Shown here piece by piece: positions 8,440 to 28,462 of a stretch of DNA of 64,000 nucleotides. The notes below the pieces were generated by a model. It searched no databases and had not been told where the DNA came from. It was given only the letters and a program-made list of their open reading frames with translations. How positions within the stretch are numbered: the stretch's first letter is position 1; each line of letters opens with the position of its first letter. A program made the translations under genes and the position numbers. The stretch comes from Bdellovibrionota bacterium (lineage in GTDB: Bacteria > Bdellovibrionota > UBA1018 > CAUJDS01): NCBI GenBank assembly GCA_963169695.1, contig CAUJDS010000060.1, positions 190,780 to 254,779 on the forward strand, written 5' to 3'.

Positions 8440-8631
8440 CGCAGTGCATTCAGAATAGCACCGGCGGAATTTTTTTGTCCAGCACCGAAAGTGATCCTGA
8501 GAGGCTGCAAATGGCGAGAGCAAGGATGATGAGAATATTGTTTGAAGCATGGTGCCTATTGAAATGAATTGCGATCGCGTTCCCCTTAAGTCAGCATGGA
8601 ATTCAAAGTAGATGATGAAGAGGCAATAAGT

Positions 8632-11600
8632 ATGAAAATCTGGATTCAGTGGATGATCACCAAGCGCAGGTGGGTGGTAGCGGGCACCTTACTTGTGACC
8701 GCTTTGTTTATGTCTCAGCTTAAGAACCTTTCCATTATTATTGATCCTGATGACGCACTACCTCAGTCTCATCCCTACTTAAAAGTGAATAACGAAGTCG
8801 AACGAATTTTTGGGAATAAATTTACGGTAGTAATTGGCGTCACCGCCAATCAAGGCGATGTTTTTCAGACCCCCATTCTCAAAAAGGTCAAATCGATTAC
8901 GGACCAAATGCTAGCGCTCCCGGGGACCGTCAAGTCGAACGTCAATAGCCTTTCTGCAAGAAAAGCCAAGAGCATCTCGGGCGATCAAGAGGGAATGACC
9001 GTTCGTCCTTTGATGGAAAAGGTGCCGGAAAACGCAGCCGAAATGGAACGCCTGAAGGTTGGCCTTGCGTCGAATCCAGTTTATGAAAATCTCCTTATCT
9101 CCCCCGATCGAAAAACGACCCAGATTGTTGCAGAATTCAAAAAAATCCCGGGCGGGTTCAAAGCCATTGATGATCAGGTTCGAAAGATCGTAGACAATGA
9201 GCGTGACCCAAGTGTGGATTTGACTGTTGGTGGTCTACCTACCTTTCTTTCTTTGTTAGAGCGGTATTCTCAACGGATGGGATTTCTTTTTCCGATTGCG
9301 GTCTTGATCATTGGACTGATTCACTATGAGGCCTTTCGGACCGTACAGGCTCTGATTTTGCCCCTTGTGACCGCACTCGTTGCAGTCGTATGGGCAGTCG
9401 GGATCCTTGCCCTTCTTGGTCAGCCGATGGATGTTTTTAATGCCTCTACGCCCATTCTTATATTGGCGATCGCTGCGGGCCATGCGGTTCAAATTCTGAA
9501 ACGCTATTACGAAGAATATTCTTCCATCAGAGAGCAGTCACCCATGATGCCACCGGCTGAAATGAATAAGATGGCCGTCCTTGCATCCCTGACGAAGGTT
9601 GGTCCTGTCATGGTAGTGGCATGCTTGGTTGCCGCGTTGGGCTTCTTTTCGCTGATGATTTTTGAAATCAAGTCCATTCGGACCTTCGGGGTATTTACTG
9701 GATCGGGTGTAGTCAGCGCATTGATTTTGGAGCTGACCTTTATTCCTGCCCTGAGATCCATGTTACCTGCACCCAGTGAAAAGGAATATCGCAGAGAGAA
9801 GCAGGTGTCTTTTTGGGATCGCTTGACTGGCGCACTCTATGGTCTGTCTGTCGATCATCGTAAAAAGGTCTATCTTGTTTCGGGAATGGCTATCGTCATT
9901 CTTTCGCTGGGCGGCTACTGGCTCAAAATCGAGAATTCTCAAAAGAGTTACTTCTACGGAAAAATTCCAGCCAGGTTGGAAGATGACAAAATCAACGAAC
10001 GTATGGCGGGCACGAATACCCTTTATACCTTTGTCGATACCCAGAAAGAAGACGGAATAAAAAATCCAGAGGTGCTACACGCGATGGAAAAAATGCAGGA
10101 ATTTTTTTCCAAAGAGGCTCCAATAGGTAAAACGGTGTCCATCGTAGATTTCATCAAGCGAATGAACCAGTCCATGAATGCTGACAAAAAAGAATTCTAC
10201 CAAATTCCTGATAACTCGGACCTTGTCGCTCAATACCTTTTGCTCTATTCGAACTCAGGCGAGCCGGGAGATTTTGATTCCTATGTCGATTATGGCTACC
10301 AGAAAGCGATTGTTCAGGTTTTCACTAAGGTAGACAATTCGACCTACATTGATGACGTGGCCAAACGAGCCAAGGCCTATGCTGATAGTGTTTTTCCGGC
10401 GGGAGTGCAAGTGTCGATCGGTGGAGGCGCCACAGGGGGAGTTGCGCTCAATGAAGTCATGATTCATGAAAAGGTCCTCAATATTCTGCAGATTATGGCT
10501 GCGGTTTTTCTTGTGTCGTCTTTTGTTTTTCGATCCTTTCTCGCCGGCGCGTTGATTCTGGTTCCATTGGTTGCAGCAGTTTTTGTAAACTTCGGGGTCA
10601 TGGGTCTTCTTGGAATACCCTTACAAATAGCCACAGCTCTCGTATCTGCCATGGCGGTTGGTATTGGAGCGGACTATGGCATCTACATGAGCTATCGGAT
10701 GCGCGAAGAGTTGCGTTCAGGGCGACCGGAAAAGGAGGCCATTGAGCGCGCATTTCGCTCAGCTGGAAAAGCAACTCTCTTTGTGAGCAGTGCAGTCGCG
10801 GGTGGATTTGGAGTGCTCATTTTTTCTTGGGGATTTATGATCCATATCTGGATGGGTTTCTTGATTGCCACGGCGATGCTGGTCAGTTCCTTTACGGCAC
10901 TTACGGTATTTCCGTCGCTCATACTTACGTTAAGACCGACGTTTATATTTGATCGAAGAAAGGAAAAGCGAGAGATGAAGATGGCAAGTATTGGAATGGG
11001 TCTATTGAGTATGGGCCTCTTGGGAGGAGGAGGGCTTGAAGTTCGCGCAGAATCGCTTACGCCAGATCAGATTGCGAAGAAGAGCTTTTTGACCTCGAAA
11101 GTAATGGATTCCACCTCTGACTCAACTTTTCGACTCGTCAATGGAAACGGACAAGAGCGTGTTCGAGAGACCCAGGGTCAAACCAAGTTGATTCCTGGCA
11201 CGACGGACAATCGTCGAGTCGTAACGTTTCTTTCGCCATCGGATATCAAAGGAACCAAAACACTCCTAGTAGAACATAGCGAGAAAGATGACGACATCTG
11301 GATCTACCTACCAGCCCTAAAAAAGGTGCGAAGGCTTGTGGCCAACAATAAGAAAGACTCATTTGTCGGGACCGATTTTTCGTATAGTGATGTGATTGGG
11401 CAGAAAGTAGAAGAATGGAATCATATACTTTTAAAAGAAGAGAAGATAGATGGGCGCGATTGTTACGTCATCGAAGCCACTCCAAAGAAGCCAGAAACTG
11501 GCGAAAATTCTGGCTATGCTAAGAGCACCAGTTGGATTGATAAAGCTAGTTTCGTAGCGGTACAGGCTGAGTTTCATAATGGTGGTGGAATTCTGTATAA

Positions 11601-13036: not shown

Positions 13037-13077
13037 GTGTACCTTGCTGGGGCCACGATTTCATGGAGACAGTGCAT

Positions 13078-13153
13078 CCCCAGCGAGGCGGGTTTGAAGC
13101 TAGGAAGTTTGTACGGGATGAACAGGAAGGGGACTCAGCGAGGGGGGAGGGTG
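13078..13153. repeat. Left inverted repeat flanking the HNH nuclease gene
   Basis: The first 32 bases (13078-13109) are the reverse complement of 14717-14748 with one mismatch. Similarity continues imperfectly to about 13153 (matching 14677-14716), through GGGATGAACAG and GAGGGGGGAGG-like blocks. An 11-base copy of the outer end, CCTTGCTGGGG, also lies at 13042-13052 and can pair with 13078-13088 to form a hairpin. The two long copies bracket the HNH nuclease gene. No other gene lies in 13037-13519, which also holds a terminator at 13284-13310. Confidence 0.75.
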
Positions 13154-13283
13154 ACAAAATTGAAAGAAACTTTTCAGTAAGTGCCCGTGAATACCTGTTA
13201 CGATGATTCCCTTTCTGCGCGCGAAATGGAAAAGAATTCTTTATCATCCGATTTGTAATTTAGAATTCTTTCTCGAATTATTG

Positions 13284-13310
13284 CTCGGTTTTTCTTGACC
13301 GAGTTTTTTT
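13284..13310 (+). terminator. Intrinsic terminator
   Basis: CTCGGT at 13284-13289 pairs with ACCGAG at 13298-13303 across an 8-base loop, followed directly by seven T residues (13304-13310). This is a small but canonical rho-independent terminator. It would end transcripts of the RND exporter and barrel operon before the nuclease gene. Note that it lies inside the repeat-bounded segment. Confidence 0.7.
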
Positions 13311-13519
13311 AAAAAAGTGCATTTGGCATTCAGCAAATCCAAGTAACGCGTAACATCCTATTACACGCGCACAATGCCTCAATAGAGCATCGTTCGCTTA
13401 GCAATCCTCCGGGTCCATTTGAATGTTTGTATCGTGTCTCTTATCGAAGACTAAGGCCTAAAAATTCGACCAAAAATTTCGTGATAAGTAGTCCGAAGAA
13501 AAAGAAACGGAGAAACACC

Positions 13520-14566
13520 ATGCTGCAAAATGAATCCACTCAAGCGTCAAAGAATAAAAATATTAGCACAGAACAAACGCCTTCTGGCCTCAAAGGATTG
13601 TCGGATACCCAGTTGCAGCTTCGAATCCGAGAGCTTGCCAAAGCCGAGCAGAGTCTGACTTTACAAGTGCTGCTTCACCTCAAAGAAATCTCCGATCGCA
13701 AGCTCCATGCAAAGCTTGGATATGCTTCCTTGTGGGAATACACAGTGAAAGAACTAGGCTATTGCGAAGCTTCTGCTTCCTCTCGTCTTGCCGCCATGCG
13801 ATTGATGGTGAGTGTCCCAGAAGCTAGGACTCAGATCGAAAGTGGAAAACTCACACTTTCTCAGGCAGCAAGGATTCAGCAGTTTATTCGTAAGGAGAAT
13901 CAAGTTTCTTCGGAGCCCATTACGAAAAGTGAAACCAAAGCAATCATCCAAGCCTCTTTAGGTTCTTCCATCCGAGAGACCCAGAGGATGCTCGAAGCCA
14001 AAGCCCAAGAACGAAGGCCTAGTTTGATTGCTGAAAAGCAGAATCAACCTACTATCTCCTTTCAGGCGGATGAAGAAACTCTGCAAATGCTAGAAAGGCT
14101 CCGGGAGCTACGTGGAAACCTGGGAGCCTTGGAGCTATTTAAGCTAAGCCTCAGAACCACTTTGGATAAACTCGATCCACTCCGAAAGAAGCAGAAGGTA
14201 ATAAGTAGCAAACCAGATCTGTCCCTTTTTGCGCAGAAACCCAAGGATGATTGCCTCGCTGTTGATAGGAATTTATGTCCAATGCCTTCGAAGCCTTCAC
14301 GCTTTATCCCGCAATGGATCCGGATCGAAGTAGCCAAGCGAAGCAAAGGCCAGTGCGAGTATCACAGTCCTTTAAACGGCAAGCGATGTGAGAGTCGGTA
14401 CCGAGTTCAATACGACCACATTGCGCCGATTGCTCGTGGAGGAGTAGGGACTCTAGAAAATATTCAGCACCTTTGCGGACTCCACAATCGTACGAAGGGA
14501 GTGCAGATGGAGGCTGCATACTTCGGGGCAGCGCTTACCGCTGTGTCAGAAGAAAGAAGAAGCTGA
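13520..14566 (+). CDS. HNH endonuclease
   Basis: A 348-residue protein. The N-terminal two thirds are helical and charged (LSDTQLQLRIRELAKAEQ, HLKEISDRKLHAKLGYASLW, YCEASASSRLAAM), a DUF222-like or DNA-recognition module. The C-terminal HNH nuclease runs from about residue 285: CEYHSPLNGKRCESR, then VQYDHIAPIARGG (the D-H of the motif), ENIQHLCGLHN and the final N-RTKG. The start at 13520 is preceded by GGAG at about eight bases; an unlikely upstream extension exists. The gene stands alone and is bracketed by long inverted repeats, so it may be part of a mobile unit. The DNA target is unknown. Confidence 0.85.
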   Translation: MLQNESTQASKNKNISTEQTPSGLKGLSDTQLQLRIRELAKAEQSLTLQVLLHLKEISDRKLHAKLGYASLWEYTVKELGYCEASASSRLAAMRLMVSVPEARTQIESGKLTLSQAARIQQFIRKENQVSSEPITKSETKAIIQASLGSSIRETQRMLEAKAQERRPSLIAEKQNQPTISFQADEETLQMLERLRELRGNLGALELFKLSLRTTLDKLDPLRKKQKVISSKPDLSLFAQKPKDDCLAVDRNLCPMPSKPSRFIPQWIRIEVAKRSKGQCEYHSPLNGKRCESRYRVQYDHIAPIARGGVGTLENIQHLCGLHNRTKGVQMEAAYFGAALTAVSEERRS

Positions 14567-14676
14567 TTTAAGTACTTGTAATGAGTTCGCGCGCCCGAAG
14601 TGGAAATTTTTTTTGCTTAGGGCAAGGCTGTTACTAAAATGCATTGATATTATATAAGTAAGTACCTGCCTCCGGG

Positions 14677-14748
14677 CACCTCTCCCCTCGTGGCTTCCCC
14701 TCTGTCATCCGTTGCTAACTTCCTAGCTTCAAACCCGCCTTGCTGGGG
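14677..14748. repeat. Right inverted repeat flanking the HNH nuclease gene
   Basis: Reverse complement of the left copy at 13078-13153: 31 of 32 bases match in the outer part (14717-14748), with looser similarity inward to 14677. Beyond it, GCTGAG and CTCAGC around 14749-14780 form a further short hairpin. The rest of 14567-14924 contains no gene; its last part carries the leader of the VWA lipoprotein gene. Confidence 0.75.
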
Positions 14749-14924
14749 CTGAGCACGCAGACTCCGCCTGTGTCTCAGCTTACCTGGGATCAGTGGTCGT
14801 TTTTGGGCCTCTAAGTGGAGCCTGTCAAAATCTTCATCAAATTTGAAACCTATGCCCCCGTAATTACAGCAGAGTAGAAGGGAACAACTCTTGCTTCTCT
14901 TTCAACCTGGGGAAATAAGATTTC

Positions 14925-26954: not shown

Positions 26955-26974
26955 AGCAACGAGGGATGAGTGTT

Positions 26975-28462
26975 ATGACAAATAAAGAAGAAGCAGTTGA
27001 ACCGAGTGATGCGATTCTGCAGACTGCATTCTTTGCTGTCCTATTTTTTCTGGGATCTGCTGACCAGTTCTTTGCTTTTCGAGCGGGGGCAATGAATTTT
27101 CGATGGGGACAGGCACTTCTCTTTTCAATGGCGTTGTATCTTTTTTTCAGGCGAAAAGGCTGGGGGGGCGCGAGTAATTGTTTTGCGGACCTGCGTCAGT
27201 CGAAGCGGGGAAGGATGGGTTTTCGAACCGCAGCCTATGCTTTAGTTTCTTTTATTGGGTTGTATGCTTGGAGCTCCTTGCAATCGAAATATCCCATGAT
27301 GGGTTTTAAGAAGTTAACTTGGTTTGTGTTTAATGCCGGCCTTTCCGGAGCGCTTATTTTGGCATGGCCTAAGAAGTACTTTAGTTCCTTACGAAATGGG
27401 GTTTTCTTCGGTGTGGGAGCAGTTGCGGGAGTAATTCTCATCGATTCGATTGCGGTTCATGTTTTTGGACAAAGTCCGTGGCTGGGTTTTGCGCAGCAGG
27501 GTTATCCTTATAGGGGAGCGTATGTATTTCGTGCCCACGCTTTTTATTACGAGCCTTGCTATGCGTCTACCATGTTGGTCTTTGCCGCAATGCTTGCATT
27601 TGTTGATTCGATTCAGGAAAAGCGGTCCTACCTCTCGTGGTTGAATCCAGGGATCTGGATAGCGGCGGCTTTTTTGTCGGGATCGCGAACAGGGCTATTG
27701 ACTCTCTTTGTATGTGGGGTGGGTTGGTTTCTCATTGGTATTCGCAAACAAATGCGCAATTGGCTCAAGGCATCTATTGGAGTTGTGGTCGTTCTTGCGT
27801 TGGTAATGACGGCATTTGGTTTGACCACAGGTGGAAGACGGTATCTTAATTTCCTATCTGGTCCCATGGGTTTGGATGGCATTGTCTATCGCTTGGAGCG
27901 CTATCAAGCAGCTAGAAAAGCTTGGAGCGAAGGGGCAAAGACACTTGAAGTAAGAGAGAATCCTTATTTCAAAGAGCAATGTCAAGGCTTCGAGGAGGAA
28001 TGTAAAACCTGGCATGCGTTTACGGGTGATCCCACAAAAGACAAAATGGCAATGACGAGTGAGGGTGGAAGAATTCAAAGTTGGATAGATGCTTGGAACG
28101 ATGTCCAAGACTCACTTTTCTTTGGCAAAGGTGTGGGCAGCATGAAGGATGGCCGAATTGAGGTTCGAACCTTGAGTATGTGGCTGGAGATTTTACTTGA
28201 AAGTGGGCTTGCAGGTCTTTTGGCTTTTGGAATTGCTTGGCTCGCCCCATGGGCGGCGGTCATTCTTGGGTATTCGGTTGGCAAGCCAAAATGGGTGACT
28301 TGGATCGTATTGGGTCTGCCAATTCTGGCTCATGGCGTTTTTAGTATGAATATGACTTCTTCCTTTCCACGGTTAGATTTTTGGTTGCTGTATTTCTTTG
28401 GATTGCGAATGTATTTGGAAAATTCAAAAAATCAGGCAGGAAGCGTCTTGGCGGCTCCATAG
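26975..28462 (+). CDS. O-antigen ligase/polymerase-like membrane protein
   Basis: A 495-residue polytopic membrane protein with about eleven TM helices and a large periplasmic loop between about residues 300 and 380 containing GGRRYLNFLSG and RLERYQAARKAWSEG. This layout, a glycine- and arginine-rich entry to the big loop and GSRTGLLTLFVCGVGWFLIG, resembles the Wzy_C family of O-antigen ligases (WaaL) and polymerases (Wzy). The ATG at 26975 has GAGGG nine bases upstream; another at 26966 is possible. Its 3' end overlaps the convergent glycosyltransferase gene by 31 bases. Ligase and polymerase cannot be told apart here. Confidence 0.7.
   Translation: MTNKEEAVEPSDAILQTAFFAVLFFLGSADQFFAFRAGAMNFRWGQALLFSMALYLFFRRKGWGGASNCFADLRQSKRGRMGFRTAAYALVSFIGLYAWSSLQSKYPMMGFKKLTWFVFNAGLSGALILAWPKKYFSSLRNGVFFGVGAVAGVILIDSIAVHVFGQSPWLGFAQQGYPYRGAYVFRAHAFYYEPCYASTMLVFAAMLAFVDSIQEKRSYLSWLNPGIWIAAAFLSGSRTGLLTLFVCGVGWFLIGIRKQMRNWLKASIGVVVVLALVMTAFGLTTGGRRYLNFLSGPMGLDGIVYRLERYQAARKAWSEGAKTLEVRENPYFKEQCQGFEEECKTWHAFTGDPTKDKMAMTSEGGRIQSWIDAWNDVQDSLFFGKGVGSMKDGRIEVRTLSMWLEILLESGLAGLLAFGIAWLAPWAAVILGYSVGKPKWVTWIVLGLPILAHGVFSMNMTSSFPRLDFWLLYFFGLRMYLENSKNQAGSVLAAP

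Follow-up and report, generated by a model that had tools for sequence, protein, structure and literature searches.

The window, that is, the whole stretch of 64,000 nucleotides that we analysed, belongs to a 263-kb contig of the 2.79-Mb draft genome of a Bdellovibrionota bacterium (G000), and it is this genome that was searched for further copies of the feature studied here. The feature consists of an HNH nuclease gene lying between two long inverted repeats, or arms. Direct comparison gives an inverted repeat of 47 nt at 87% identity (13075-13121 and 14705-14751), and a profile made from all copies lengthens the arms to about 69 nt, with the left arm at 13075-13144 on the + strand and the right arm at 14751-14689 on the - strand. 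The outer 22-base block of the arm, CATCCCCAGCGAGGCGGGTTTG, is nearly invariant in about 36 arms, and of the 70 columns of the arm, 22 show conservation of 95% or more. An HNH gene is the only gene between the arms. It is located on the + strand at 13520-14566 and encodes a protein of 348 aa; the ATG at 13520, preceded by a GGAGAA ribosome-binding site, is the best start, and the stop is at 14566. Both the gene and its zinc-ribbon HNH motif are intact, the catalytic and zinc-binding region (14354-14485, + strand) containing C279, C290, H300, N314, C319 and H322. A terminator-like hairpin is present between the left arm and the gene (13283-13304, + strand), in a region where the number of hairpins is not above that of shuffled sequences. 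The initial annotation had reported the long inverted repeats, a left repeat starting about 40 bases after the stop of a barrel gene, and the lack of a transposase, and these points hold: the distance from the stop codon of the upstream porin gene to the left arm is only 38 bases, and no transposase or recombinase was found adjoining this copy. The extra 11-base copy of the arm end that it mentioned, CCTTGCTGGGG, is also present, at 13043-13053 on the - strand. It lies 21 bases to the left of the arm, in the opposite orientation to it, and is either a relic of a second arm or due to chance. Elsewhere in the window, ARAGORN reports a 99-base tRNA-Gln at 28086-28184 that lies within a long ORF of the same orientation (26966-28462) and is possibly a false prediction.

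The gene had been described as solitary, and this is not the case. A search of the genome for paralogous nucleases gave 28 HNH matches, which fall into two families: members of family 1 share 84-91% protein identity with the protein of the window, and those of family 2 about 25%, while the arms are the same in both. A search with the arm pattern CCCCAGCAAGGCGGGTTTGA gave 41 matches at up to three mismatches, against none for the reversed control. Nearly all of the approximately 40 arms are located beside HNH genes or their remnants, so that the repeat is not found widely without a link to the nuclease; some are located at contig ends, as is expected of repeats. Altogether there are about 30 copies, about 16 of them near-complete and about 14 remnants (14 intact genes, two genes with one stop codon, and the remnants). 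The elements measure about 1.6 kb from arm to arm, and about 1.8-1.9 kb with the outer ends where these are preserved. Every copy that we checked is intergenic, in any orientation and between unrelated flanks. Six relatives have a conserved counterpart of the MMPL-porin operon that lies upstream of the window copy, and in none of the six is it followed by an HNH gene. The arm sequence was found in none of the 368 further genomes of the phylum, which rejects the idea that the arms are general in this group, and exact matches to it were found neither in GTDB contigs nor in IMG/VR viral contigs. A tblastn search for a phage or plasmid origin gave no match. On locus L240, fragments of the family 2 leader are preserved around the palindrome described below (2040-2260 and 8570-8700), without arms or gene.

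In some copies, conserved flanks are present outside the arms: flank B, of about 85 bases, and flank A, of about 100-130 bases. Within the genome these flanks are found only beside arms, and both start with a similar motif, GGNCTCCGTAGTAATCGTTGAA; the arms are thus placed 80-130 bases inside the probable ends of the element. The copy in the window has no recognisable A or B end. Both outer ends are kept in three copies only (L044, L047 and L048), and each of these has an imperfect direct repeat at its outer ends, as transposition predicts: GGATTGTCC/GGATTGCCC in L044, with 8 of 9 positions identical (P 0.001 against random pairs), AGTTTTAGA/AGTTTTAAT in L047 and GCCTATTAT/GCCTTTTTT in L048 (3777-4667), both with 7 of 9 (P 0.012). 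Of the random pairs, 0.1% reached 8 identities and 1.2% reached 7; the outer ends were first recognised by eye, and the repeats of L044 and L047 had been spotted in this way ahead of the test. Insertion at the outer ends with a probable target duplication of about 9 bp is supported by this small sample. Elsewhere in the assembly the outer-end motif has two extra matches, which is at chance level; no autonomous partner was seen, and the possibility that the motif represents the ends of another IS was rejected. A separate palindromic repeat resembling AAAAGGTGCCTGGCACCTTTTGC recurs beside elements, near the outer flanks (L051, L058 and L050).

The proposal that the feature is a mobile unit is supported by the dispersed copies at unrelated intergenic sites, the relatives' operons lacking the gene and the direct repeats of three copies, and we regard a mobile element family as well supported. 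That this unit is non-autonomous applies in part. Three copies located at three loci (L045, L046 and L047) have a deletion of the HNH domain with a common junction, which implies that copies spread after loss of the nuclease and that the nuclease is dispensable in cis. Pairwise dN/dS within each family is 0.09-0.19 at dS values of 0.27-0.76, showing strong purifying selection on the nuclease.

The orientation of the flanks relative to the gene differs among the copies of family 1. In L046, L062 and L063 the 5' side of the gene is occupied by flank A, and in L039, L044 and L047 by flank B. The inner segments thus appear to have been flipped relative to the outer flanks, which supports past inversion of the segment between the arms over evolutionary time. 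In addition, the 3' part of the family 1 element, about 168 bases (14584-14751 in the window), is homologous on the - strand to the 5' end of family 2 elements (85% identity to L051). Arms of the same element are no closer to each other than arms of different elements (mean likeness 0.76 against 0.74), and arms from different families can be up to 94% alike, indicating that arms recombine. A structured RNA in the arm or leader was considered and rejected, as there was no match in Rfam and the fold of the arm, with 8 pairs, showed zero compensatory changes.

Each element holds a pair of conserved internal sites. In family 2, the palindrome TCGTACNGTACGA occurs twice, about 1.0 kb apart, once in the leader and once in the part of the ORF encoding the linker. 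The core of the ORF site is present in 10 of 10 genes, with only the centre base varying, and synonymous divergence at this site is 0.029 per codon versus 0.262; the leader palindrome is likewise present in 10 of 10, L052 retaining only an 11-base core with changed edge bases. Genome-wide, this palindrome is nearly confined to these elements. In family 1, the leader contains TTTCTGCGC, which recurs inverted in the linker; in the window, the leader site TTTCTGCGCGCGAAAT is at 13212-13227 and the ORF site TTTTTGCGCAGAAACC at 14226-14241 (both annotated on the + strand). The latter lies in the interdomain linker and is covered by the family 1 codon windows of lowest synonymous divergence, in which synonymous change is zero. 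A search for palindromes repeated within an element recovered the family 2 loci and three loci in two other genomes, against 0-1 of 75 loci in the shuffle control. All three have their palindromes in leader and linker: ACTCCGCCGGCGGAGT in L147, ACTTCCGACGTCGGAAGT in L165, and a palindrome with four copies in L153. The last of these, CTCCGCCGGCGGAG, occurs about 10 times in about 613 kb of genome G015, where about 0.002-0.004 would be expected; four of these are in one HNH element and the others are away from the HNH genes examined. In G019 the corresponding palindrome is present in the element only. In the remnants L046 and L242, deletions appear to join the leader site exactly to the ORF site; this is supported by a small sample, and recombination of short repeats would also explain it.

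The protein of the window matches Pfam in its HNH domain only. DUF222 (PF02720) is matched weakly by 13 of 50 family members (best 5.7e-5), and not by the window protein. AlphaFold2, run on an alignment of 50 sequences, gives a confident helical N-terminal domain, for which the best three Foldseek matches are Noc and ParB proteins (7ng0, 2.6 A over 119 columns, probability 0.99, E 0.6). The predicted architecture is a ParB/Noc-like DNA-binding domain joined to a C-terminal HNH domain, in a DUF222-like arrangement, the ParB/Noc likeness being only a lead. ParB/Noc proteins bind palindromes, and palindromes recur in these elements; on the other hand, the domain is here fused to an HNH part, which resembles McrA and the Gme nickase.

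The nearest known relatives are the REP13E12 or DUF222-HNH repeats (13E12 family), which share with the present elements dispersed, multi-copy genes with a C-terminal HNH domain, the lack of a transposase and, possibly, an N-terminal domain of DUF222 type. REP13E12 elements are reported to be repeats that occur close to insertion sequences (PMC10589994), and have been described as gene-conversion hotspots whose function is not defined (PMC13061034). They differ in that the DUF222 match is here weak and confined to some members; the long inverted arms, the A/B outer ends and the paired sites of the present elements may be further differences. A literature search combining Bdellovibrio, HNH and inverted repeats returned no report. 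Free-standing HNH homing endonucleases are likewise selfish single-gene units; they encode an HNH nuclease that is sequence-specific and has a separate DNA-binding domain, which in our case is predicted. However, they have one cognate site, whereas the elements described here have many unrelated intergenic sites, long inverted repeats and internal sites of their own; since the insertion sites are all different, the suggestion of a homing-type element is not supported in the strict sense. IscB/HEARO elements resemble ours in being compact, with an HNH domain and a conserved 5' leader, but neither a RuvC domain nor a guide RNA leader was found, the NCBIfam IscB match is far below cut-off and limited to the HNH part, and the leader has no Rfam match, so that this assignment was rejected. 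MITEs and other TIR transposons have dispersed copies, inverted ends common to these copies and target duplications, which are probable here; by contrast, the elements described here encode no transposase and no partner was found, their arms are located inside the probable ends, and they carry a nuclease gene under selection. Multi-copy HNH genes without a transposase, as in REP13E12 and its relatives, are widespread and unexplained. In this genome the ends of about 30 copies are defined, target duplications are probable, some derivatives have lost the nuclease, and there is a candidate for the recognition site. A role of the HNH protein as mobility enzyme can thus now be put to a direct test of binding, cutting and mobility.

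On balance, we believe that the feature in the window is probably one of many copies of a mobile element that is specific to this lineage, lacks a transposase and carries one sequence-specific HNH nuclease. It is plausible but unproven that the HNH protein drives mobility. The protein would bind the paired sites via its N-terminal domain, resulting in autoregulation, cutting or both; cuts made by the HNH protein, or by a partner acting in trans at the conserved ends, would lead to copying of the element through break repair; and recombination between arms would invert or exchange the inner segments. More tentatively, the nuclease with its ParB-like HTH may be the mobility enzyme itself, recognising the leader and ORF sites, cutting there or at the ends, and spreading, inverting and exchanging cassettes by break repair; the same paired layout with other palindromes elsewhere in the order might then point to a general, undescribed class. 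Counting against our main reading are the dispersal of HNH-dead copies, the small number of copies that keep both outer ends, and the observation that the nuclease family is multi-copy in related genomes without long inverted arms.

The main rival, which we consider possible though doubtful, is that the HNH gene is a passenger: cargo kept for another reason in a MITE-like transposon that is non-autonomous, has both outer and inner inverted ends and is mobilised in trans by a DDE transposase of the host. Since DDE transposases typically produce duplications of 9 bp, the element could be moved by one that went undetected, and both the dispersed HNH-deleted copies and the presence of two distant HNH families between the same arms fit this scenario. 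It is harder to reconcile with the chance-level occurrence of the outer-end motif elsewhere in the assembly, with the tens of copies that related HNH genes reach in other genomes without these arms, and with the paired internal sites, which connect the recognition of DNA with the HNH gene. It seems unlikely that the cell keeps the copies as resident nucleases with a beneficial function (defence, breakdown of DNA or regulation), the repeats marking only old duplications and gene conversion. The low dN/dS at high dS and the conserved leaders would agree with such a role, but the conserved terminal structures, the direct repeats, the many decaying remnants and the dispersal of HNH-dead copies would not. 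The least probable alternative, to which we give very little credence, is a phase-variable locus in which recombination of the arms flips the gene. The initial annotation had raised this possibility, and the occurrence of both A/B orientations supports inversion over evolution, but nothing points to a present-day switch: a linked site-specific recombinase was not found beside the window copy, the arms are only about 70-87% alike, with no greater likeness within than between elements, and the gene has its own leader, so that flipping would not obviously switch it.

Related HNH genes are multi-copy across much of the order, with up to 46 matches per genome; none of the copies in other genomes has comparable long inverted repeats, and they have conserved upstream leaders of 100-350 bases. 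In one of these genomes, G056, the HNH copies L174-L190 are 95-99% identical at the protein level but 86-91% at the DNA level, and the 5' leader of about 220-270 bases nearly matches the gene in conservation. One pair of these copies has a dN/dS of 0.06 at a dS of about 0.45, a further value in keeping with the resident-nuclease alternative. The loss of similarity between the G056 copies at the stop codon, a candidate gene-conversion boundary, is expected from this level of divergence.
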